From Eubacterium sp. (GTDB lineage: Bacteria > Bacillota > Clostridia > Lachnospirales > Lachnospiraceae), in assembly GCA_022769325.1 (NCBI GenBank), contig JALEKC010000157.1:1-45861 (forward strand): 45,861 nt of DNA. The letters are read 5' to 3'. Position 1 is the first letter of the stretch, and the number at the start of each line of letters is the position of its first letter. The position numbers were made by a program, and so were the translations under genes. The notes under the pieces are model-generated. The model saw only the letters and a program-made list of their open reading frames with translations, was not told the origin of the DNA and ran no database searches. This document shows, piece by piece, positions 10,748-36,100 of this stretch.

Positions 10748-11293
10748 TCATTTTTTTAATTCTTCATATTCATTTCGTGTAAAACGATGATACGTCAGTC
10801 CAAAATCATCATCCTCCACGCAATACACATATCGTTCCGTGGTTTCTTTTCCAAAATATAACACAGTCCCCAATCCATCATGGACCATATTCTCCCGACA
10901 AAGAACATCCCCCTGCTCCTTTGCAAAAGTTTCAAAGCACTCCACCACCTCTTCCAACGTTGCTGTGGGCCTTTGAATCACCTCCAAAAAACGCTTTAAA
11001 AAAGTAGGGTCTGGAACCGTCTCTGCGATATGAATCACTCCCTCTTCCGGAATTTCGATTCCATAACGTTCCTTTTCTTTCCAAAAATGCAAATCTCCAA
11101 AAAGCTCTTTTGTTTCTGTCTGAAACTGCGTCAGGGATTTCTCAAGTGTTTCAATCGACGCCTCTCTTTTAAGTCCCAGCAAATCTTTTAAATCCTCCAG
11201 AGGATAAAATAAATCCATTTTCTCCCTCTGCACTCCAATTTTCAACTGCCATTCCTTTACGGTATCTACCATATGCTGCTGTAATTCTGACAT
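10748..11293 (-). CDS. DUF3877-like conserved protein of unknown function
   Basis: This 181-residue, acidic, soluble protein has no signal peptide or membrane helix. It looks like the DUF3877 family of Lachnospiraceae, recognised from memory and without a profile search. Visible features are an N-terminal helical half (KEWQLKIGVQREKMDLFYPL) and a C-terminal half with VLYFGKETTERYVYCVEDDD. No catalytic motif stands out. It starts at 11293, 11 bp after the S41 protease stop, and ends 16 bp before the cellulase start, so it is probably co-transcribed with both. I assign no function. Confidence 0.7.
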   Translation of the reverse strand: MSELQQHMVDTVKEWQLKIGVQREKMDLFYPLEDLKDLLGLKREASIETLEKSLTQFQTETKELFGDLHFWKEKERYGIEIPEEGVIHIAETVPDPTFLKRFLEVIQRPTATLEEVVECFETFAKEQGDVLCRENMVHDGLGTVLYFGKETTERYVYCVEDDDFGLTYHRFTRNEYEELKK

Positions 11294-11304: not shown

Positions 11305-12528
11305 TTATTGTCCTTCGATTATTTGAAGTCCTCGCTGCAATTGCGTATCCTCTTTTTCAAGCTCCGCTGTATCTTTTTGAATAGATTCTTCTTTCGTATA
11401 TTCTATAACTTCATCCGGTTCAATCCCCTTTTTATGAATACTTTCTCCATTGGGCAGATAATATTTTGCAGTTGTCAATTTTAAACCTCCGCCACAACTG
11501 CCTTTCAGAGAAAACAAGGTTTGAACGATGCCTTTTCCAAAACTTTTGGTTCCAATCAATGTAGCTACCCCTCGAGTTTTTAAGGTTCCTGCAAATACTT
11601 CGGAAGCACTGGCACTATTTCCATTTATCAGTACCACCATTGGTTTCTTATAACTTTCTTTATCATCGGAATGATATACTTTATCTCCATCTTTTTTGCT
11701 TTTTTCCGTAATTAAATCCCCTTTTGGCAGAAGGCGGTTCAACATATGAATGGCCGATTCCAAGGACCCTCCACCATTGTCCCTTACATCTATTACCAGC
11801 CCTTTTATCTCCTCCTTTTCCAACGCAGTAACTGCTTTGGAAAACTGCTCATCCGTTTCATTGTCAAATTCTGTTATCCGTATATATCCGGCATTTCCTA
11901 TTTGTTTAGATTCCACGGAAATAACATTCACTTTTTCACAGGAAACTTGCAAAGAAAGCCGCTGTTCTTCTCCTTCCTTTGTCCGAAGAATATCTATGAC
12001 AAAGGTTTTTCCTTCATTTTTATCATTTTTGATCAAGGAAACAACCTCATTTAAACTTTTTCCTGTTAAATCGGTTCCAGCCACCGCTTTGAAAATGTCC
12101 CCAGCCTGCATTCCTGCCTTTTGCGCCGGTCCCCCCGCTGTAACCTTGGTTACAGCAATACTTCCATCCTCTTTTTGTTGAAGCGTAACACCAATTCCTA
12201 CATAGGAACCATTGATGTCCTTTAATTTCTCATCATATTCACTTTGAGTGTAGTAAGCAGAATACTTATCTCCCAGGGAAGAAACCATTCCCTTGGCCGC
12301 TCCATTGGCAAGATCTTCTTCCGTATAATCTCCCTGATAATATTTTTTAATGCATTTTTCAATGGTCTTTGTCTTATCATATGCTTGGGTTGCCGCATTC
12401 CCGGACACCGTGATGGAAATGCCAAAATATCGAAAAATATTAATTAGGCAAAGCATCAATATAGCACCACAAAATATCCCCATAATAAAGGTACTTTTTG
12501 TGGTCTTTTCTTTTCTTATCTGCAACAT
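11305..12528 (-). CDS. S41 C-terminal processing peptidase (CtpA/CtpB-like)
   Basis: This 407-residue serine protease is anchored by one N-terminal helix (about 13-33) and works outside the membrane. A PDZ domain (about 105-190: GSYVGIGVTL, AGGPAQKAGM) precedes the S41 core with VIDVRDNGGGSLE. The catalytic Ser is in NGNSASASE (Ser307) and the Lys in TKSFGKG (Lys332). Their spacing of 25 residues equals that in known tail-specific proteases. In many Firmicutes a CtpB-like gene follows ftsEX and an M23 hydrolase, as here. However, a terminator-like hairpin separates it from the M23 gene, so it may head the next unit with the DUF3877-like and cellulase genes. AAGGAG precedes the ATG. Confidence 0.92.
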   Translation of the reverse strand: MLQIRKEKTTKSTFIMGIFCGAILMLCLINIFRYFGISITVSGNAATQAYDKTKTIEKCIKKYYQGDYTEEDLANGAAKGMVSSLGDKYSAYYTQSEYDEKLKDINGSYVGIGVTLQQKEDGSIAVTKVTAGGPAQKAGMQAGDIFKAVAGTDLTGKSLNEVVSLIKNDKNEGKTFVIDILRTKEGEEQRLSLQVSCEKVNVISVESKQIGNAGYIRITEFDNETDEQFSKAVTALEKEEIKGLVIDVRDNGGGSLESAIHMLNRLLPKGDLITEKSKKDGDKVYHSDDKESYKKPMVVLINGNSASASEVFAGTLKTRGVATLIGTKSFGKGIVQTLFSLKGSCGGGLKLTTAKYYLPNGESIHKKGIEPDEVIEYTKEESIQKDTAELEKEDTQLQRGLQIIEGQ

Positions 12529-12607: not shown

Positions 12608-13894
12608 TTAACTTTGACTCACATAATTTAACGGGTCTACATAACTACCATTTACGGTTACACCAAAATGAAGGTGCGGGCCGGTAGAAATCCCTGTAGA
12701 ACCTACGTTTCCAATGACATCCCCCTGTTGTACGGTATCTCCTACCTTAACAGACAATTTGGAGCAATGCATATATACGGTATACAAACTATTTCCATGA
12801 TATATCATAATATAATTTCCCGCACTGGAACTGTATGTGGCTGTCACCACAGTTCCCGCTCCCGATGCCACAATCGGCGTTCCGGAAGAGACTGCAATAT
12901 CTACCCCCTTATGGTACGTGCTGGCTCCTTCTGTAGGACTGGTCCGGGAACCAAATTTGGAAGAAATTCTTCCTGACACCTTAAGTGGCCAACGCAATTC
13001 ACCTGTATTGGCAGCATAGGAATCATTTCCTGTAGCCGGATCCGCACCAGAGGTATTTGTATTGGAACCAGTGGCCGCTTTACTGCTCTTCTGTGCTTTT
13101 TTGGCTGCTTCCTGTCTTGCAATTTCCTGTTGTTTTTTCAAAAGCAGAGATTCTACTATTTGCTCCTGCTTTGCCACCTGGGCATTGAAGGTCTGAACAC
13201 GTTTATCTGTCACATGAATCGCAGAATTCAATTTCTTTACTTCATCTTTTTTACTGCTCTTTAGTTTTTTCAATGAATTCTGATCTGCAACCGCTTCATC
13301 CTGCAGACTGCAGATTTCATCCACCTTTGCTTCCATCAGACTTTGTGAATGCTCAATCTCTGTCATCCGCTGTGCATATTCTTCAAACACTTTGGCATCG
13401 TATTCGGATATTTTCTCCACGTATTCGGAACGATTGAGAAAGTCCCCAAAGCTGGCTGCACTGAAAATGACATCCACATATCCATCATTTCCATTTTCAT
13501 ACATATATTTTATTCGTTTTTTCATGATTTCATACTGCTCTTTTTGCTTTTCCTGTAAATTGGAGCATTCTTCCTGAATCTTAGCCAATTCCTTACGGGA
13601 CTTTTCAATCTGCTTTTTTAACCCCGCAATGGTATCAGACATCTTTTCTATTTTTTTGTCCACTTTTTCAATATAATTTAAAATATTTCCCTTGCTTTTT
13701 TCCAATTCCTTCAAATCTTTTTCCAGATTTTCCAGATGGCTCTCTGCTTTCTTTTTCTCTTCTTCTGCTTTTTGAATCTGCTGATCAAAATCTGCCGTTC
13801 CTTCTTCCGCCTGAACCGGAAGATTCAGATTGGATAAGCAATACGCAAAAACCATAGATAATACCAAAGCCATTGCTACAATTTTCTTCTTCAT
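12608..13894 (-). CDS. M23 peptidoglycan hydrolase with coiled coil (EnvC/PcsB-like), FtsEX partner
   Basis: This 428-residue exported protein has a signal peptide (about 1-29), long paired coiled coils (about 35-270, KAESHLENLEKDLKELEKSK), a low-complexity Ser/Thr/Asn link and a C-terminal LytM/M23 endopeptidase domain (about 300-425). The zinc ligands are present in YHKGVDIA (His, Asp) and GPHLHFG (HxH), with the catalytic His in YMHCSKL, so the enzyme looks active. Coiled coil plus LytM behind ftsE and ftsX is the FtsEX-activated hydrolase layout (EnvC, CwlO, PcsB). In these the transporter switches wall cleavage on during division or elongation. It starts 20 bp after ftsX. Confidence 0.93.
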   Translation of the reverse strand: MKKKIVAMALVLSMVFAYCLSNLNLPVQAEEGTADFDQQIQKAEEEKKKAESHLENLEKDLKELEKSKGNILNYIEKVDKKIEKMSDTIAGLKKQIEKSRKELAKIQEECSNLQEKQKEQYEIMKKRIKYMYENGNDGYVDVIFSAASFGDFLNRSEYVEKISEYDAKVFEEYAQRMTEIEHSQSLMEAKVDEICSLQDEAVADQNSLKKLKSSKKDEVKKLNSAIHVTDKRVQTFNAQVAKQEQIVESLLLKKQQEIARQEAAKKAQKSSKAATGSNTNTSGADPATGNDSYAANTGELRWPLKVSGRISSKFGSRTSPTEGASTYHKGVDIAVSSGTPIVASGAGTVVTATYSSSAGNYIMIYHGNSLYTVYMHCSKLSVKVGDTVQQGDVIGNVGSTGISTGPHLHFGVTVNGSYVDPLNYVSQS

Positions 13895-13914: not shown

Positions 13915-14832
13915 TTAGATATCCAAATGCTTTCTTACCGTAAAGAAACTACCTAAAAAGCCTACGCCAATTCCGATTACAAGGCAAGTAGGAACCAGCA
14001 CACTAAATACAGTTCCCGCCGGTAAAAATGTCATCCAGCTTGAAATCATGTCGAATTTTGTCTTAATATACTGTACGATAGATGAATAACTGATCAATAA
14101 AATAATAAGCGGAATCAATGCTCCCACAAAACCAATTACCACACCTTCTACAATAAAGGGTGCCCGGATAAAAAAGTCAGAGGCTCCCATCAACCGCATA
14201 ATACCAATTTCTGCACGACGCACGGTAATTCCGGTTGAAATGGTGGACTGAATCAAAAATACAGAAACGGCCAATAAAATCACAATGATGGCAATGGAAA
14301 TATAACTTACCAAACGGCTGGCATTGGTAAGACTTTTTGCCGTATCCGCCGACTGTTTTACAAGGCGAACTCCCGCAATTTCCCGAATATAATTTGCCAA
14401 TTCATCCTGCTTGGATAAATCCTCGACATAAACCTGATACGAAGCGGAGTCTGCCAGAGGATTATCACCGGCAAAACTTTCTACCAAATCCGGATTGTCT
14501 TTAAAATTTTCTGCAGCAAACTGCTTCCAGGCTTCCTCTGCCGACACGAATTCAACATGATCTACTTCATCACGGGCTTTAATGGCTTCTCCAATGGAAT
14601 CCATCTGTTTCTGTGAGGCACCTTCCTCAAAAAAAACGGTAAGTCCTACCGAAGATTCTACTTCTTTTATCATATGCTGAAAATTACCTACGATAAAATA
14701 AAACATACCAAATAAAAACAAACATGCTGCCATGGTACTAATGGATGCAATGGTAAACATCTTATTTTTGCGCAAACTTTTCAACCCTTGACGCACGCTA
14801 TATAAAAATACACTAATCCCTCTCATATTCAT
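13915..14832 (-). CDS. ftsX: Cell-division protein FtsX
   Basis: This is the membrane subunit of FtsEX (about 305 residues). It has one N-terminal helix (about 25-50), an extracytoplasmic domain of about 110 residues (FFEEGASQKQMDSI), then three helices and a short C-terminus; the ERR/VRRAEIGIMRLMGAS loop that contacts FtsE is clear. The ORF track starts at 14871. The ATG at 14832 (MNMRGISV) has AAAGGTGG just upstream and overlaps ftsE by 20 bp; ATG 14826 is the alternative. The complex relays ATP hydrolysis to the wall hydrolase encoded next. Confidence 0.93.
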   Translation of the reverse strand: MNMRGISVFLYSVRQGLKSLRKNKMFTIASISTMAACLFLFGMFYFIVGNFQHMIKEVESSVGLTVFFEEGASQKQMDSIGEAIKARDEVDHVEFVSAEEAWKQFAAENFKDNPDLVESFAGDNPLADSASYQVYVEDLSKQDELANYIREIAGVRLVKQSADTAKSLTNASRLVSYISIAIIVILLAVSVFLIQSTISTGITVRRAEIGIMRLMGASDFFIRAPFIVEGVVIGFVGALIPLIILLISYSSIVQYIKTKFDMISSWMTFLPAGTVFSVLVPTCLVIGIGVGFLGSFFTVRKHLDI

Positions 14833-15523
14833 AGCCACCTTTTTTATCATCACGGACAACGGTTCCCTCATTCAGTGTTACCACGCGTTTTTGCATAATA
14901 TCTACAATGTCATTGTTGTGGGTCACTACAACAACCGTCGTTCCCATCTTATTCACTTCCTGCAAAAGCATCATAATTTCCCAGGCATTCTGCGGATCCA
15001 GATTTCCTGTTGGCTCATCCGCAAGAAGAATGGTTGGCTGATTTACCAAAGCTCTCGCAATGGCCACACGTTGCTGCTCACCACCGGACAATTCATTGGG
15101 ATAGGCATCTGCCTTATCGGTTAATCCCACAATGGTCAACATGGTCGTCACATTGCGAATCATTTCTCTCTTGCTTCTTCCAATGATTCTTTGTGCAAAG
15201 GCAATATTTTCAAAAACCGTGCGGTCTTTCAGCAAACGAAAATCCTGGAAAACTACACCAATGTTTCGTCGATACAACGGAATCTGTTTACGCTTTAATT
15301 TATTTACAAGTCTTCCTGCAATATACAGTTTTCCGGAGGTGGGGTCCAATTCTTTAAGCAACAATTTAATAAACGTAGACTTTCCGGAACCACTTTTCCC
15401 CACAACAAAGACAAACTCGCCATTTTTGATTTGCAAGGTAACATGTTTTAAAGCATCTACACCAGTTTGATATTGCTTACTTACATCATCCAGTGCGATA
15501 ATCGGCAATTGATTTGCTGTCAT
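14813..15523 (-). CDS. ftsE: Cell-division ATP-binding protein FtsE
   Basis: This 236-residue ATPase subunit has Walker A GKSGSGKST, Q-loop VFQDFRLL (the FtsE-typical DFRLL), signature LSGGEQQR and Walker B LLADEPTGNLD with switch His in THN. Its gene overlaps ftsX. It lies 43 bp behind the CdaR-like regulator gene and is preceded by AAAGGATG. Confidence 0.95.
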   Translation of the reverse strand: MTANQLPIIALDDVSKQYQTGVDALKHVTLQIKNGEFVFVVGKSGSGKSTFIKLLLKELDPTSGKLYIAGRLVNKLKRKQIPLYRRNIGVVFQDFRLLKDRTVFENIAFAQRIIGRSKREMIRNVTTMLTIVGLTDKADAYPNELSGGEQQRVAIARALVNQPTILLADEPTGNLDPQNAWEIMMLLQEVNKMGTTVVVVTHNNDIVDIMQKRVVTLNEGTVVRDDKKGGYEYERD

Positions 15524-15566: not shown

Positions 15567-16655
15567 TCAATAATCGATGGTTTCCAGATAGTTCATATAT
15601 TTAACAACCATAAGTGCAATCTTAAAGGTAATGGCATCATCAAAAACCCGCAAGTCAAGTCCGGTACTTTTTTGAAGTTTATCCAGGCGATATACCAGTG
15701 TATTTCTATGGATATATAATTGTCTGGAAGTCTCCGAAACATTCAAATTATTCTCAAAGAATTTATTAATCGTAGTCAATGTCTCTTCATCAAACTGATC
15801 CGGAGTTTTTTCTTCGAAAATTTCCTTGATGAACATCTTACAAAGAGGCATGGGAAGCTGGTAAATCAAACGCCCAATTCCAAGATTACTATAAGCAATT
15901 ACATTTTTATCGCTATAAAAAATCTTTCCCACATCCAGAGCCATCTTCGCTTCTTTGTGAGAGCGGGATACTTCTTTTAAATCCTTCACAATGGTTCCAA
16001 AAGCCACATGTACCCGCGACATAGCCTCTGTATTGAGCATATCTACGATGACATGTGCTGTCTTTTCCAAATCCTCTATCTGATCCCGTTCCCCAATCTC
16101 CTTGACAAGGATAATATTTTTTTCATCCACCGCAGTAATAAAATCTTTGGTTTGAGTGGCAAACATACTTCGAACCGTCTCAAGAGCCCCGGAATCTTTT
16201 TCTTTATTCGTCTCAATCAAAAATACCACACGTCTGGCATTCATCTCAATATGCAATTTTTTGGCACGGTTAAAGATATCAACCAAAAGAAGATTGTCCA
16301 ACAATAAATTCTTGATAAAATTATCTTTATCATATCTTTCTTTATAGGCAACCAGAAGTCCCTCTATCTGCAATACAATCATTTTCCCTATGGTATACGC
16401 TTCCTCCGAATCTCCTCGGATTATTACAACATATTCTAATTGACCTTCATCATATACCTTAAAATAATGACATCCTTTTACAACCTGACTGTCTGCCGGC
16501 GACTGGATAAAACTCAATTCATCCTCTTGACTCAGTCTAAAATCATCCGATGTTGTGGCCAATGTATTTCCTTCTGCATCCGTTACGCATAAATCATTTT
16601 TTATAATCCCCTTAATACCTTCAATTGTATTTTGTAAAATCTGATTTGATATCAT
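15567..16655 (-). CDS. CdaR/PucR-family transcriptional regulator
   Basis: This 362-residue regulator has an N-terminal domain of the sugar-diacid-recognition type, a central GGDEF-like segment found in CdaR/PucR proteins, and a C-terminal PucR helix-turn-helix (about 300-350: LNVSETSRQLYIHRNTLVYRL). The effector is unknown. It starts at 16655 behind GGAGGTG and has its own promoter. Its position directly ahead of ftsE suggests shared transcription with the division genes, which is unusual for a family best known for diacid or purine catabolism. Confidence 0.85.
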   Translation of the reverse strand: MISNQILQNTIEGIKGIIKNDLCVTDAEGNTLATTSDDFRLSQEDELSFIQSPADSQVVKGCHYFKVYDEGQLEYVVIIRGDSEEAYTIGKMIVLQIEGLLVAYKERYDKDNFIKNLLLDNLLLVDIFNRAKKLHIEMNARRVVFLIETNKEKDSGALETVRSMFATQTKDFITAVDEKNIILVKEIGERDQIEDLEKTAHVIVDMLNTEAMSRVHVAFGTIVKDLKEVSRSHKEAKMALDVGKIFYSDKNVIAYSNLGIGRLIYQLPMPLCKMFIKEIFEEKTPDQFDEETLTTINKFFENNLNVSETSRQLYIHRNTLVYRLDKLQKSTGLDLRVFDDAITFKIALMVVKYMNYLETIDY

Positions 16656-16786: not shown

Positions 16787-17899
16787 CTAGTTTGTAATGG
16801 TAACCTCAGTTTCTTTATCGAAGAGGTGAATCTTCTCAGCATCCAGAGCAATCTTAATGGTATCACCAGGACGAGCAGTTGTACGAGGATTAACACGTAC
16901 TGTAATATCAGTATCTTCGATTGTGAAATACAAGAATACTTCTGCACCAAGCATTTCATAAACTTTAACTGTAGCTTCCAATGTAGTATCTGGAGAATTA
17001 CTGATAAACATTTCTTCATCTTTAATATCTTCTGGACGAATACCAAAGATGATATCTTTATCTTCATATCCATTTTCAATCAATTTCTTAGCTTTGCTCT
17101 CTGTAAGTTTGATGGAATTGTTTCCAAATACAAGAAGAACATCGGAACCGGAAACGGTTACTCTTGCTTTGATGAAGTTCATCTGAGGTGAACCGATGAA
17201 TCCAGCAACGAAAAGGTTGTTTGGACGCATATACAAATCCAATGGGCTGTCAACCTGCTGTACGATACCGTCTTTCATAACAACGATACGAGTACCAAGT
17301 GTCAAAGCCTCTGTCTGGTCATGTGTTACGTAGATAATTGTTGTTTCCAGTCTCTGATGAAGTTTGGAAATCTCAATACGCATCTGTACACGAAGTTTTG
17401 CATCCAAGTTGGAAAGAGGCTCATCCATAAGGAATACTTTAGGATCACGAACGATAGCACGACCCATAGCAACACGCTGTCTCTGTCCACCGGACAAAGC
17501 CTTTGGTTTACGGTCAAGCAAATGCTCGATATCAAGAATCTTAGCTGCCTCATGTACGAGACGGTTAATCTGATCCTTTGGAACTTTTCTTAATTTCAAA
17601 CCGAATGCCATATTATCAAATACGGACATATGTGGATACAAAGCATAGTTCTGGAATACCATGGCGATATCACGGTCTTTTGGCTCTACGTCATTTACTA
17701 ATTTGTCTCCAATCCAAAGCTCACCGCTTGAAATCTCTTCCAAACCAGCAATCATACGAAGAGTAGTTGATTTACCACATCCAGATGGACCTACGAAAAT
17801 GATAAATTCTTTATCTTCAATTTCAAGATTAAAGTCCTTAACAGCGTGAAAGCCGTTTGGATATACTTTGTTAATGTTTTTTAATGATAAACTTGCCAT
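16787..17899 (-). CDS. ugpC: Carbohydrate ABC importer ATP-binding protein (MsmK/UgpC type)
   Basis: This 370-residue ATPase is of the kind that serves one or several CUT1 sugar importers. It has Walker [11 protein letters not shown]-loop [10 protein letters not shown], signature LSGGQRQR, Walker [13 protein letters not shown], switch His THDQ, and a C-terminal OB/TOBE regulatory domain (about 240-370). No permease or binding-protein genes are nearby and the gene has its own terminator. It is therefore probably a shared orphan ATPase like MsmK, and the UgpC symbol is only the family name. Codon choice is cleaner than in the neighbours, with repeated GTA/CGT/AAG, as expected for high expression. 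AGGAGG precedes the ATG. Confidence 0.9.
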
Positions 17900-17996: not shown

Positions 17997-18031
17997 AAAA
18001 AAATCTTTGTATAATTTGCATAAGATTTTTT
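17997..18031. terminator. Possible AT-rich terminator after the YitT gene
   Basis: AAAAAAATCTT and AAGATTTTTTT flank a 14-base loop and form an A/T-rich stem ending in a T-run on either strand. It overlaps the yitT stop codon. Only one G-C pair supports the stem, so it is weak. Confidence 0.4.
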
Positions 18032-18905
18032 ATGACATTTCATGCCAAAACCCCTCTCCCAGTACCTCTTTTGCATCAGAAACAATAAAAAAAGCATTTT
18101 TATCGGCACATTTCACAATTTCCTTTAATATAACCGCTTCTTTTTTAGACACAACGCACATAAGAACTGTTTTGTTGGTTTTCGAATACATTCCCCTCCC
18201 TTCTAAACCCGTAATTCCTCTTCCTAATTGCCGGAACACTTCTTCTGCAATGCTTTCCGAATCGTCGGATATGATATAAGCAACTTTGGCAAATTTCAAC
18301 CCCTCCACAATGGCATCTGACACCTTTCCTGTAACAAAAACTGCCACTACGGCATACAATCCTATCTCCAAGCCAAATACAAACACGCCGGCAGCCACAA
18401 TTACCGTATCAATGAGAATCAATCTTTCTGGAGCTCGTAATCCCAGCATAAATCTACCTGTTAATGTACTTAAAAGATCACTCCCTCCTGTAGACGCCCC
18501 CTGGGAAAATACAAGACCGATTCCGACACCATTTAATGTCCCCCCAACCAATGTTGCCATCAAATAGTCCTGTTTTACAATATCATAAGTGGGAACCACC
18601 ATTAAAAAGAAAGAAAAACAAATTGCCGCATAAATGGTTTTCCGTATAAACATTCTTCCTTTTTGATAATACCCCCAGATAAAAAGAGGAATATTCAGTA
18701 CCAGCGTGGTGAATCCTACGGAAATTCCTGGTGAGTTCTCTGTCTGTGTCATTTTTTTTACTAGAATTCCAATACCGGAAAAACCACCTGTGACCATGGA
18801 AAGAGGTTCATAAATCACATTGATTCCCACTGCCATAAAAAATGTACCTGCTGTTAAAAGCAGGTACGTCTTCCAAAGGTTTCTCTTATTGTTCTTGATT
18901 TTCAT
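18030..18905 (-). CDS. YitT family membrane protein (DUF2179 C-terminus)
   Basis: This 291-residue protein has five or so membrane helices with the conserved VTGGFSGIGILV and GASTGGSDLL segments, then a cytoplasmic DUF2179 domain (about 205-285, TGLEGRGMYSKTNKTVLMCV). The family's transport role is unsettled. The ORF track begins at 19073 inside the TagA-like gene. I use ATG 18905, with AAGGAG about 11 bases upstream and 37 bp after the previous stop. It is the last gene of a three-gene unit. Confidence 0.88.
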   Translation of the reverse strand: MKIKNNKRNLWKTYLLLTAGTFFMAVGINVIYEPLSMVTGGFSGIGILVKKMTQTENSPGISVGFTTLVLNIPLFIWGYYQKGRMFIRKTIYAAICFSFFLMVVPTYDIVKQDYLMATLVGGTLNGVGIGLVFSQGASTGGSDLLSTLTGRFMLGLRAPERLILIDTVIVAAGVFVFGLEIGLYAVVAVFVTGKVSDAIVEGLKFAKVAYIISDDSESIAEEVFRQLGRGITGLEGRGMYSKTNKTVLMCVVSKKEAVILKEIVKCADKNAFFIVSDAKEVLGEGFWHEMS

Positions 18906-18942: not shown

Positions 18943-19668
18943 CTACTTTTTGATATTATAGTTGTCCATTTTCTTTTGAAATATTCGTTTTCTCCAGTTG
19001 ACAGAGTAAGGAACACGAGCAATGCTGGCATATAATTTTCCGAGATGAAGCCGTTTGATGATATTGGGTACATGAATATTTTCTCTTAATATCATATCCA
19101 TAACTCCACTTAATACTACACCCAATTTTGCATTTATCATATGACGATTATGTTCCAAAAAAACCTCCGCCTGCTCTCCTTGCATAGCCATCAAAATCAA
19201 GTCCGGCACCTTGGTATTGATTTCATTAACCAGCGCCTCTTCAGTAATGTTGGAATCCATGGAATACACTCCCGTTATTTCCATATCAACATAACTTTTT
19301 TTGATATAACGGTAAACAATTTTTGCTTCTTTTTTGTTTCTTAAAATCAAGAAACATTTTTTATTTTTCAGTAAGTCCTTTGCCATCAAGCGATGAGCAA
19401 TTCGATAATCAACCACCATTCCACCTGATTCAAGGACATCCACATGATACATACTCAAAATTGCCTTTTCTCCGGGCAAAACCAAATCTGCCTGCTGCAA
19501 TACCCGTTGAACCACCGGCTCCTCTTCATATTTATCAATATAGTCTAAAGAGATTAAATGCACCACCCGAAATAAATCACCGGAAAGATATTCTGCCATT
19601 TTCTCACAAAAAGTTTCTTCGGTCAAAAGATCCAGTTCCAAGTCCATAATTTTCAAACTTGTTCCCAT
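18943..19668 (-). CDS. TagA/WecG/CpsF-like protein lacking catalytic residues
   Basis: This 241-residue protein has the fold-level pattern of WecG/TagA glycosyltransferases, which add ManNAc or ManNAcA to a lipid-linked sugar. Recognisable parts are QQADLVLPGEKAI, MEITGVYS, DLILMAMQGEQAEVF, LGVVLSGVMDM and a basic amphipathic C-terminus. The family's PDG motif, with the catalytic Asp, reads PGE; the Gln of GxPxQE reads Ala (GEQAE); and the GVGGxFD motif is eroded to LSGVMD. It is probably a non-catalytic relative, though a changed mechanism is possible. ATG 19668 follows AAAGGAG, 35 bp after the LCP-like gene. Confidence 0.7.
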   Translation of the reverse strand: MGTSLKIMDLELDLLTEETFCEKMAEYLSGDLFRVVHLISLDYIDKYEEEPVVQRVLQQADLVLPGEKAILSMYHVDVLESGGMVVDYRIAHRLMAKDLLKNKKCFLILRNKKEAKIVYRYIKKSYVDMEITGVYSMDSNITEEALVNEINTKVPDLILMAMQGEQAEVFLEHNRHMINAKLGVVLSGVMDMILRENIHVPNIIKRLHLGKLYASIARVPYSVNWRKRIFQKKMDNYNIKK

Positions 19669-19703
19669 GACTACTCCTTTCTTTGTTGCACAAGTCCATC
19701 CAA

Positions 19704-20810
19704 CTATTTTAAAGCATCCTCTGTTCCCAATACAATCTCTACATCCGCTCCATTGGTCAAAGAATCGGCTTCCTGAATAATCGGATTTTTGAAATAATCT
19801 TTCAAATAGTGGCCCCACCTTTTTCTGCGAGCATAAATCGTTGTCTGTTTCTGAACGGCACCGGTATAGTCCCCAACTCCCATAACATATAAACCATCTT
19901 TTTCCAGTTTTTCTTTGTAAGCAGCAGCCAGTCCATTAATCTTGCTTCCATTGGTAATTTGAATACTGCGGGATTTCAACTTGTCAAATCCTGTCGTTGC
20001 AGTTGTTCCATCCACAGATTTTTGAGGAGTGGTACGTGCTTCCGTTTCCCAAATCTGATCAATCATTTTTTTTGTCTTTTTGCCATCCAGGGTTGCACTT
20101 CCTTTTATTTCTTCCGCATAGGCCCGGTGTGCATAGATACAATCTCTTTTTACTTTTATAAGCCCCGATGCATATTGCTGTTTCTGGCTCAACGTAATAT
20201 CCGATATCAAACTGTCCCATTCGTCTTCAATAAAATCTTTCATGGATTCTTCACTGCCATCTGTCGGCACCGTTTCCAGATATTCCTGGTTGGGACGAAA
20301 AGCACCATCTTTCTTTTCAAATCGCTTTTCGAATTCCACCGAATCCAATGCCGTAAAATAACCAATTTCCACATCTAATTCTTTCTGTAGCAACAAAATG
20401 CCGTATTCATAAGCGACATCTCCCTTAAAATACTGGTTGATATCCCGAAGGGTGACAATCTGTGGCATCGTAGGACTAATCTTCTGATATTCCTCAAAAG
20501 CCTTTGCATCCAGTGAAATCTGTGTTTTATTAGGAATCGTGATATAATCCAGATTTCCCGTTTCTTTATCAAATAATTCAAGTACGATTGCCCGCACAAG
20601 ATTGGTATCCTTTTCGACGCTATAGATCAAATTGCTGGACTCCGAACCGGTATCCACGGTAATCACATGCTCATACCGGGTACTTCTCTCCTCTTTTGTT
20701 GTGACTTTAAACCATAATGAAGTCAAAAAATAGCTTGCCACACCAACACCTACCAGCAAAGCCATGATTCCAATTGTTTTTCCAAATACTTTTAAAAATA
20801 TTTTCGCCAT
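19704..20810 (-). CDS. Degenerate LCP-like protein with LytR_C domain
   Basis: This 368-residue single-pass protein (helix about 11-32) has an extracellular part in two regions. The first (about 45-250) follows the LCP fold order (IVLELFDKETGNLDYITIPN, ELDVEIGYFTALDSVEF), but the conserved PRD motif reads PNK and no RxRH-type cluster is seen. The second (about 265-365, SIQITNGSKINGLA...VEIVLG) resembles the LytR C-terminal domain. LCP enzymes move lipid-linked polymers onto peptidoglycan; this one probably cannot. Compare the intact LCP at 34610-36100. It begins a three-gene unit with the TagA-like and YitT genes under the promoter at 20882-20910. Confidence 0.7.
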   Translation of the reverse strand: MAKIFLKVFGKTIGIMALLVGVGVASYFLTSLWFKVTTKEERSTRYEHVITVDTGSESSNLIYSVEKDTNLVRAIVLELFDKETGNLDYITIPNKTQISLDAKAFEEYQKISPTMPQIVTLRDINQYFKGDVAYEYGILLLQKELDVEIGYFTALDSVEFEKRFEKKDGAFRPNQEYLETVPTDGSEESMKDFIEDEWDSLISDITLSQKQQYASGLIKVKRDCIYAHRAYAEEIKGSATLDGKKTKKMIDQIWETEARTTPQKSVDGTTATTGFDKLKSRSIQITNGSKINGLAAAYKEKLEKDGLYVMGVGDYTGAVQKQTTIYARRKRWGHYLKDYFKNPIIQEADSLTNGADVEIVLGTEDALK

Positions 20811-21005: not shown

Positions 21006-21737
21006 ATGTCGATAACTGCAATTATAACCGGTGCATCCCGGGGAATCGGTGCTGCCACTGCACAAGTTCTTGCCAGAGAGGGCTATCAATTATTTTTATG
21101 TGCCAGCCATTCCGGTAAGGAATTGATGGCTGTGAAAGAACAATGCGAAGCTCTGGGAGCTTCCTGCACTACATTTCTTGGCGATTTGTGCCAGCCGGAA
21201 ACAGCCATGCAATTGGTGAATACTGCTTTGGATGCGTATCCCACTATCGATGTTCTTATTAACAATGCCGGCATCTCTCATGTGGGCCTGGTAACTGATG
21301 CATCCAAAGAAGACTGGAATCGTGTCCTTTCTGCCAATTTATCTGCCGCATTTTTTCTCTGTCAGGCAATCCTTCCCCACATGATTCACCGCAAACAAGG
21401 AAAGATAGTAAACATCTCCTCCATCTGGGGTGTTCATGGTGCCTCCTGTGAAGTGGCCTATTCTGCCTCCAAAGGCGGGCTCAATACATTGACGAAGGCG
21501 TTGGCAAAAGAGGTGGCTCCCAGTGGAATCTCTGTAAATGCCATTGCCTGTGGTATGATTGATACCCGAATGAATGCCTGCTTTTCCCGGGAAGAAATCA
21601 ACGATATCTGCGAAGAAATCCCCATCGGTCGTATGGCTTCCCCGGAAGAAACCGGAGAATTCATCTCACTTTTGTTAAAAGCTTCCCCTTATATGACCGG
21701 ACAGATTATTGGTTTCGATGGTGGTTGGGGAGTCTAA
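21006..21737 (+). CDS. SDR-family oxidoreductase (FabG-like)
   Basis: This 243-residue classical short-chain dehydrogenase has the NAD(P) motif TGASRGIG (about 8-15), NNAG, and the catalytic Ser-Tyr-Lys (SSIWG; YSASK). The C-terminus GQIIGFDGGWGV is that of 3-oxoacyl-ACP reductases. It stands alone with no fatty-acid synthesis genes around it, so it could instead act on another ketone; FabG in fatty-acid synthesis is only the closest comparison. AAAGAAAGGAAAA precedes the ATG, and a terminator follows. Confidence 0.88.
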   Translation: MSITAIITGASRGIGAATAQVLAREGYQLFLCASHSGKELMAVKEQCEALGASCTTFLGDLCQPETAMQLVNTALDAYPTIDVLINNAGISHVGLVTDASKEDWNRVLSANLSAAFFLCQAILPHMIHRKQGKIVNISSIWGVHGASCEVAYSASKGGLNTLTKALAKEVAPSGISVNAIACGMIDTRMNACFSREEINDICEEIPIGRMASPEETGEFISLLLKASPYMTGQIIGFDGGWGV

Positions 21738-34609: not shown

Positions 34610-36100
34610 TTAATCTTCATCACCTGGCATAGCAGTACTCTCATCCGCATCGTCGTCTTTTTCATTTTCTACAGACTCCGGTGTTGCTTCCAAAACTTTA
34701 TTGATTCGTTTTGTTATCTTGGCAACGGAATTATAGTCTGGTACACAAACATACAATTTTCTTGACTGATAAGAGTATGTCGTCTTACTTGCGCCGCTTC
34801 CTGCTGCATTTGCATATTTAATTGTCCATTGAGACATATCATCCAATTGCATTTTAGCAAGTGCCGTAATTTCTTTTGTCGACATATTGGTCTGGAAATT
34901 CTTGGACGCTGTCTTCAACAACTTCGCATAATTCGGAAGAATGTCCGGCGACATTGCTTTATTCAAAATTGCCTCAATCATATGCTGGTGATCTCTTCCT
35001 CGCTGATAATCACCATTGGAAAAATGATGTCTCTCTCGGCAAAATGCCAATGCCTGCTTTCCATTTACATGATTGTAACCCTTTTTGAAACTTGGTCCCC
35101 AATCCGAAGTAAAATCATAATCCGAATATACATTTACACCACCAAGCAAATCTACGATTTTCTTCACGCTTGTAAAATTAACGCGGACATAATAATCAAT
35201 CTTGATGTCATACAGATTTTCCAACGTACCAACGGAACAATCCACACCATGAATTCCTGCATGTGTCAGTTTATCCGGTATTCCATTGGATACGGTCAAT
35301 GGTACATAATAATCTCGTGGTGTCGATGTCAGCAAAATCTGTTTGGTATTTGGATTCACTGTCACAATCACATTTACATCGCTTCGACTAGTAGTCTTAA
35401 TGCTTCCATATACATCAATACCACTTAAATAAACATTAAATGGTGTCTTGGTAATATCATCTAGTTTTTCTTCTTCCTCCATCACGGTCTCTACCTTGTG
35501 GGTATTTAACACACGCGTATCATCGGAAAAGGTTTTATAATACTCTTCAATCGGACTACGGTTTGCTTCATTGATGATGATAGCATTTACCTCTTTGGCA
35601 TACAAGGCATCAATCAGGGTATCATTATCCTGATATTCCATAGTCGCCGGCTGCTTTCCTACAGCTGCCTGAACCTCTGCAAGTGCCTTGTCCGTATTGG
35701 CACGGTCGTTGGTAGCAAGGATTCCAAAGGTATAGTCCTTGGTGTCATAAATACTTTGCGCCGGATCGTCCTTCAAAACGATGCAAGAAATCTCATCCAC
35801 TTTCACCTGATGCCCTGCCATCTCATCAATGGCTGAATAAGTATCCACACAATAATATCCGCCACCGATGTAGAAAAGACAAATCAACGCACAAAATACA
35901 CGGCCTACGATATAAGTCTTATCCGTCATCTGGCTAAATATCCCATATGCCAATAAAAATAAGCAACCAACGATGAGAAGTACAATAAATTTCAATGGAA
36001 TAAAACCAACGTAAAATGCAACTCCAATCAATGCTGCACTAATCAAAAACTGAACGATTAAAAAAACAAGGCTCAGTTTTCTGCTAAGTAAAGTTTTCAC
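34610..36100 (-). CDS. LCP (LytR-CpsA-Psr) family wall-polymer ligase, GTG start
   Basis: This 496-residue protein has three N-terminal helices (about 10-90), an accessory domain and an LCP catalytic domain (about 245-410). The catalytic signatures are intact: SRSDVNVIVTV, STPRDYYV, DKLTHAGIHG, IDYYVRVNF, LLGGVNVYSD, and CRERHHFSNGDYQRGRDHQ with the Arg cluster. It transfers a lipid-linked anionic polymer or glycan onto peptidoglycan. The C-terminus is acidic (KDDDADEST). The start codon is GTG at 36100 behind GGAGG at ideal spacing. It has its own promoter overlapping the end of the TagB-like gene. Confidence 0.93.
   Translation of the reverse strand: MKTLLSRKLSLVFLIVQFLISAALIGVAFYVGFIPLKFIVLLIVGCLFLLAYGIFSQMTDKTYIVGRVFCALICLFYIGGGYYCVDTYSAIDEMAGHQVKVDEISCIVLKDDPAQSIYDTKDYTFGILATNDRANTDKALAEVQAAVGKQPATMEYQDNDTLIDALYAKEVNAIIINEANRSPIEEYYKTFSDDTRVLNTHKVETVMEEEEKLDDITKTPFNVYLSGIDVYGSIKTTSRSDVNVIVTVNPNTKQILLTSTPRDYYVPLTVSNGIPDKLTHAGIHGVDCSVGTLENLYDIKIDYYVRVNFTSVKKIVDLLGGVNVYSDYDFTSDWGPSFKKGYNHVNGKQALAFCRERHHFSNGDYQRGRDHQHMIEAILNKAMSPDILPNYAKLLKTASKNFQTNMSTKEITALAKMQLDDMSQWTIKYANAAGSGASKTTYSYQSRKLYVCVPDYNSVAKITKRINKVLEATPESVENEKDDDADESTAMPGDED

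Follow-up and report, generated by a model that had tools for sequence, protein, structure and literature searches.

The closest described counterparts of the locus analyzed here are LCP ligases, the glycosyltransferase TagA and LytR_C proteins of mycobacteria. The roles of the arginines in LCP proteins have been described (PMC7831098). In TagA, Asp65 acts as the base in a pocket that also contains Thr37, together with Asn39, Arg83, Gln167 and Glu168, and the C-terminal part of the protein is a membrane-binding appendage (PMC6493773). TagA is also part of the CsaB-TagA-TagO pathway, which leads to a pyruvylated secondary cell wall polymer (PMC6030368). VirR was reported to interact with LCP ligases and was proposed to be a scaffold (PMC11832169). 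Among the open-licence papers searched, we found no study of LCP pseudoenzymes or of LCP and TagA in Lachnospiraceae.

We analyzed a stretch of 45,861 nucleotides from Eubacterium sp. (hereafter, the window), in which an LCP-like gene (19704..20810) and a TagA-like gene (18943..19668) lie on the minus strand, separated by 35 bp. As originally predicted, the gene for a YitT family membrane protein with a DUF2179 domain is located behind the TagA-like gene, with its start at 18905 (18030..18905, minus strand; PF02588, E 6e-54; PF10035, E 2.5e-21). The original prediction also placed the pair under one promoter, but a sigma-70 scan detected no minus-strand site in the 195-bp gap upstream; the spacing and conserved gene order suggest co-transcription. 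The divergent neighbor, which synteny shows to be conserved with the cluster, is a ymfI-type SDR (EF-P 5-aminopentanone reductase; 21006..21737, plus strand), assigned by a match to NF047420 above the cut-off. The conserved downstream neighbors, all on the minus strand, are an MsmK/UgpC-type ABC ATPase (16787..17899), a PucR/CdaR-type regulator (15567..16655), and ftsE and ftsX (13915..15523). They are followed on the same strand by a PcsB-type M23 hydrolase (12608-13894) and a CtpA-type S41 protease (11305-12528). At the end of the FtsEX-PcsB block, CtpA is followed by a protein with DUF3877, a domain of the E. rectale type whose function is unknown (10748-11293). Although regulators of the PucR/CdaR type are mainly associated with the catabolism of sugar acids and purines, the placement of one immediately ahead of ftsEX is a conserved feature of Lachnospiraceae and of at least one sister family (CdaR-FtsE-FtsX block, L197-L236).

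The LCP-like protein (368 aa) was analyzed using Pfam, AlphaFold, Foldseek and hhalign, and consists of an N-terminal transmembrane helix, a degenerate LCP domain (residues ~57-254; 20049..20642, minus strand) and a C-terminal LytR_C domain (residues 282-363; 19722..19967, minus strand). LytR_C was the sole domain scored by Pfam (PF13399, E 7e-10) and is intact over the whole model (3-84/86), and PF03816 gave no Pfam match. The predicted membership in the LCP family was borne out by profile and structure comparisons. In hhalign, the profile of the LCP-like proteins matched ordinary LCPs with an E of 2e-6 and LCP+LytR_C proteins with an E of 1.6e-34 (probability 99.9%). The best PDB matches of the AlphaFold model (mean pLDDT 87) in Foldseek were TagT, TagU, TagV and Cps2A (E about 1e-7; TagT 6mpt, E 9e-8), and the C-terminus weakly matched the Rv2700 orthologue 6q10 (E 0.011) and Rv0431/VirR 2m5y (E 0.022). 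A PDB sequence search returned a pore-forming protein alone (E 0.08), which we judged to be a chance match.

The protein has the LCP fold and, as in VirR/Cei-like proteins, a membrane-anchored LytR_C domain; the Arg and Asp of the PRD motif and the pyrophosphate-binding residues of the RxR...GDxxR segment are absent. P-N-K replaces P-R-D at residues 93-95 (20526..20534, minus strand), and the loss extends beyond the predicted RxRH cluster to the whole RxR...GDxxR segment. Two catalytic LCPs remain in the window genome, and the catalytic LCP of this genome that we used as a comparator (34610..36100, minus strand) has both PRD and RxRH. The PRD Arg was found in none of 21 LCP-like relatives, compared with 30 of 30 catalytic LCPs in the same alignment, and the PRD Asp in one of the 21. 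The active-site segment, VR(F/Y)RKGY...(G/A)D(I/L)GRI, is absent from 19 of the 21 proteins. In L083 and L073 it is still of about full length, with the first two arginines gone; because these two proteins form a single group that is the first to diverge in the LCP-like clade, the loss of the arginines may predate the deletion. Some shortened orthologues at the LCP-like locus consist of LytR_C only (L075, L076 and L080) and others of the LCP half alone (L077, L079 and L082). Because LytR_C has been lost in some relatives, it is not the sole selected part.

The TagA-like protein (241 aa) shows the GT-E fold of WecG/TagA/CpsF proteins, with a basic C-terminal helix, in Pfam, AlphaFold, Foldseek and alignment analyses. 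Its start is the ATG at 19668, which has an AGGAG ribosome site; the longer listed ORF begins at an upstream GTG. The predicted TagA/WecG assignment was confirmed by a match to PF03808 above the cut-off (E 2.6e-12) and by the AlphaFold model (mean pLDDT 88), which matched the TagA structures 5wb4, 7mpk and 7n41 in Foldseek (TM 0.76-0.79 on target; 5wb4, E 3e-10). It is the sole PF03808 protein of the window genome, whose assembly is 87% complete.

The window protein has no equivalents of Thr37, Asn39, Asp65, Arg83 and Gln167, and Asp191 is replaced in most TagA-like relatives. P-G-E replaces P-D-G at residues 65-67 (19468..19476, minus strand), with Gly at the position of the catalytic base and the acid next to it. 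This replacement had been predicted for the window, and the alignments showed that the loss of Asp65 is general across the family: among 83 TagA-like proteins, the position is occupied by Gly in 53, Ala in 11, Ser in 7 and Asp in 2, whereas Asp is kept in all 38 canonical TagA compared (a set including one T. italicus sequence). The predicted Gln-to-Ala change in the GxPxQE motif (19168..19170, minus strand) is real in the window but restricted to its subclade, the nearest congeners having Ala or Gly. As Gln167 is retained in 61 of the 83 proteins, we rejected this change as a fixed one.

An alternative is that the TagA-like protein is a repurposed active enzyme, in which the acid has shifted to the next position (PDG to GD/GE) and a different sugar nucleotide or lipid is transferred or cleaved. 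An acid one residue past the lost Asp65 is present in 69 of the 83 proteins, Glu replaces Arg83 in 54 and Glu168 is retained in 64; together with the frequent Gln167 and the strong purifying selection described below, this is consistent with repurposing. Given the retained acid and, often, Gln167 and Glu168, some residual chemistry may persist. However, most relatives have other residues at the positions of Thr37, Asn39, Asp65, Arg83 and Asp191, and Gln167 is also gone in the window subclade. In the model, the acid is located just before helix 68-74 and may have only a helix-capping role. Moreover, TagO, and hence GlcNAc-PP-undecaprenol by that route, appears to be missing in the genus. We regard an active, repurposed TagA-like enzyme as unlikely. 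From the lost residues, we infer that both proteins of the pair lack enzymatic activity.

Sister families of Lachnospirales share the locus, with the order ymfI<>LCP+LytR_C-TagA-YitT-MsmK-CdaR-FtsE. We examined 29 sister-family loci, which came from the best matches of an order-wide search (28 of the 29 newly drawn). Thr37, Asn39, Asp65, Gly66, Arg/Lys83, Gln167, Glu168 and Asp191 are retained in TagA at all 29 loci, and YitT lies within 1.5 kb of TagA at 21. Eight genomes of a single sister family, f88, have an LCP+LytR_C gene upstream of this TagA at the shared locus, most of them with a divergent ymfI and with MsmK, CdaR and FtsE behind. This syntenic LCP has PRD in all eight genomes and the RxR motif in seven. 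At the f88 locus L378 (G531), the LCP+LytR_C protein has PRD, but its VRYRKGY-type motif is replaced by LLQYSPNY, and the TagA alongside is intact; LCP degeneration may have begun here independently, or this may be an early stage of it. Four f88 loci (L370, L371, L374 and L376) encode a predicted secreted protein of 156-188 aa and unknown function between LCP and TagA, as well as a second LCP upstream (PF03816 in the three scanned), both of which are missing from the Lachnospiraceae locus. In other sister families, a CsaB-type pyruvyl transferase precedes TagA (three checked by Pfam).

Phylogenetic trees were inferred with FastTree from one alignment each, and the supports given are those of FastTree. 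In the LCP tree, the LCP-like clade of Lachnospiraceae (0.994) is sister to the clade of syntenic LCP+LytR_C proteins (0.998). In the TagA tree, a single branch with a support of 1.0 and a length of 0.81 separates the 38 canonical TagA from 93 TagA-like proteins. The intact enzymes at syntenic positions in sister families, together with these placements, indicate that the two active sites disappeared in situ, from a locus whose products had once been functional enzymes.

TagO/WecA makes the acceptor of TagA. The window genome encodes a single PF00953 protein, which is MraY (TIGR00445 above the cut-off), as do four congeners checked. Of the 39 congeneric genomes, 38 gave exactly one PF00953 match, among them every one of the 26 with a completeness of 90% or more. 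PF00953 thus revealed no TagO/WecA match in the genus, the identity of MraY having been checked in five genomes. In f88, each of five genomes tested has two PF00953 matches, and the two checked are WecA-like. Because MraY alone was found among PF00953 proteins, the TagO-made acceptor of TagA is very probably absent from the genus, as scored by PF00953 only. A TagO/WecA enzyme to make the acceptor in the same cell, which would accompany an ordinary member of WecG/TagA/CpsF, was accordingly not found.

Both genes are under purifying selection and are kept rather than decaying. The dN/dS values calculated by NG86 among close congeners, which are approximate as several pairs are near dS saturation, were 0.01-0.14 for the LCP-like gene and 0.05-0.16 for the TagA-like gene, in the range of ymfI and yitT. 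Both parts of the LCP-like protein are constrained (0.04-0.11 in the LCP half and 0.01-0.11 in LytR_C). The original expectation that both genes are kept despite their lost active sites therefore agrees with the observed range of 0.01-0.16. An alternative is that the proteins are functionless relics, slowly decaying since the polymer pathway was lost. In its favor, various genera have repeatedly lost the TagA-like protein, YitT, or either the LCP or the LytR_C half of the LCP-like protein. However, the LCP-like gene, which is single-copy, has an open frame in all 37 congeners that carry it, and dN/dS is as low as in the neighbors ymfI and yitT. On the low values we rejected simple decay, and we consider the relic explanation highly improbable.

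The original prediction was that the two inactive proteins persist as a complex, which perhaps serves as a sensor or scaffold by binding lipid-linked intermediates of wall polymers. Several observations favor such a complex. In nearly all genomes with both genes, these are adjacent with short gaps, and both proteins are degenerate wherever both occur. Among 250 family genomes, the LCP-like protein was found in 31, the TagA-like protein in 82 (85 with three borderline) and both in 17 (18 with one borderline). Co-occurrence (17 of 31) is above chance (odds ratio 2.9, Fisher p 0.0075), in a test that ignores ancestry. Synteny across Lachnospiraceae, which the original prediction proposed as a check, holds in that the order ymfI<>LCP-like-TagA-like-YitT-MsmK-CdaR-FtsE-FtsX recurs, with the PcsB-type M23 and CtpA-type S41 genes next in the window; the nearest named relatives include Eubacterium xylanophilum, along with many uncultured Lachnospiraceae. 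It fails in that each protein is often present alone. The LCP-like gene is present in 37 of the 39 congeneric genomes and the TagA-like gene in 27; ten congeners keep the former without the latter, and about 65 other genera keep the latter without the former, with single genomes of limited completeness underlying these counts. In 34 of 40 regions around TagA-like matches, the gene directly precedes YitT and/or CdaR-FtsEX without an LCP-like gene. The two genes were thus not consistently kept or lost together, either in the genus or in the 250 family genomes, and an obligate complex of the two proteins is unsupported. Furthermore, in a subclade without the TagA-like gene, the dN/dS of the LCP-like gene is still 0.05-0.22.

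Topology also bears on this point. The LCP and LytR_C domains follow the N-terminal membrane helix, and no signal or transmembrane segment was found in the TagA-like protein, so the two folded parts are expected on opposite faces of the membrane. With such topologies, the proteins could make contact only across the membrane or by way of a third protein, perhaps YitT. Separate retention and topology make a direct complex the less likely arrangement, and we hold the predicted kept complex to be rather doubtful.

The explanation that we favor with moderate confidence is that both are retained pseudoenzymes with separable roles in the envelope, whose active sites were lost in place. In the ancestor of Lachnospirales, a functional LCP ligase (LCP+LytR_C) and a functional TagA would have been encoded, together with YitT and MsmK, beside CdaR-FtsEX. 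Both active sites would have been lost in the Lachnospiraceae line, and TagO/WecA as well in the genus of the window, after which purifying selection would have kept both proteins. The most likely mechanism for the LCP-like protein is that of a membrane-anchored extracytoplasmic scaffold, in which the intact LytR_C acts on the catalytic LCP proteins of the cell or on wall polymer; by analogy with VirR, a precedent from a distant phylum, it is probably a LytR_C scaffold. The basic C-terminal helix of the TagA-like protein is kept in the genus and corresponds to the membrane-binding appendage of TagA, which makes it plausible that the protein is peripheral to the membrane and binds a ligand. At the inner face of the membrane, it may have kept the ability to bind a lipid intermediate or a sugar nucleotide, and may report the bound ligand to the adjoining YitT/FtsEX-PcsB wall machinery. 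These two roles need no obligate complex. A speculative extension, to which we assign a low probability, is that the module derived from the ancestral LCP-TagA-YitT operon couples a pseudo-glycosyltransferase at the cytoplasmic face to a pseudo-ligase outside through YitT, senses the status of lipid carriers or sugar nucleotides, and sets FtsEX-PcsB hydrolase activity.

The locus offers a polarized case of two neighboring envelope enzymes that appear to have been inactivated in place yet kept, and the sister families that retain both enzymes intact make paired comparisons possible. If the scaffold interpretation is true, non-catalytic regulation by the LCP family would occur in common gut Firmicutes as well as in mycobacteria, and a gene that is widespread in Lachnospiraceae beside FtsEX, and probably annotated as a glycosyltransferase, would be mis-annotated.

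Compared with TagA/TarA (WecG/TagA/CpsF), the TagA-like protein shares the fold, PF03808 and the locus of canonical TagA in sister families, but lacks the equivalents of Thr37, Asn39, Asp65 and Arg83, as well as Asp191 in most relatives, and belongs to a genus with no TagO match. With regard to the CsaB-TagA-TagO pathway, several sister families have CsaB (PF04230)-TagA-YitT-MsmK at the locus, whereas the Lachnospiraceae locus has no CsaB and its TagA looks inactive. The LCP-like protein shares the transmembrane anchor, the LCP fold and the C-terminal LytR_C with LCP+LytR_C ligases, such as C. glutamicum LcpA and the syntenic LCP of sister families, the latter occupying the same genomic locus and forming the sister clade in the tree. 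It differs from these ligases in lacking the PRD Arg and Asp and the active-site segment. Like the LytR_C-only proteins VirR (Rv0431) and Cei (Rv2700) of Mycobacterium, it combines a membrane-anchored LytR_C with the apparent lack of LCP catalysis; the likeness spans different phyla, and the LCP-like protein is distinguished by still having the LCP fold, minus its active site.
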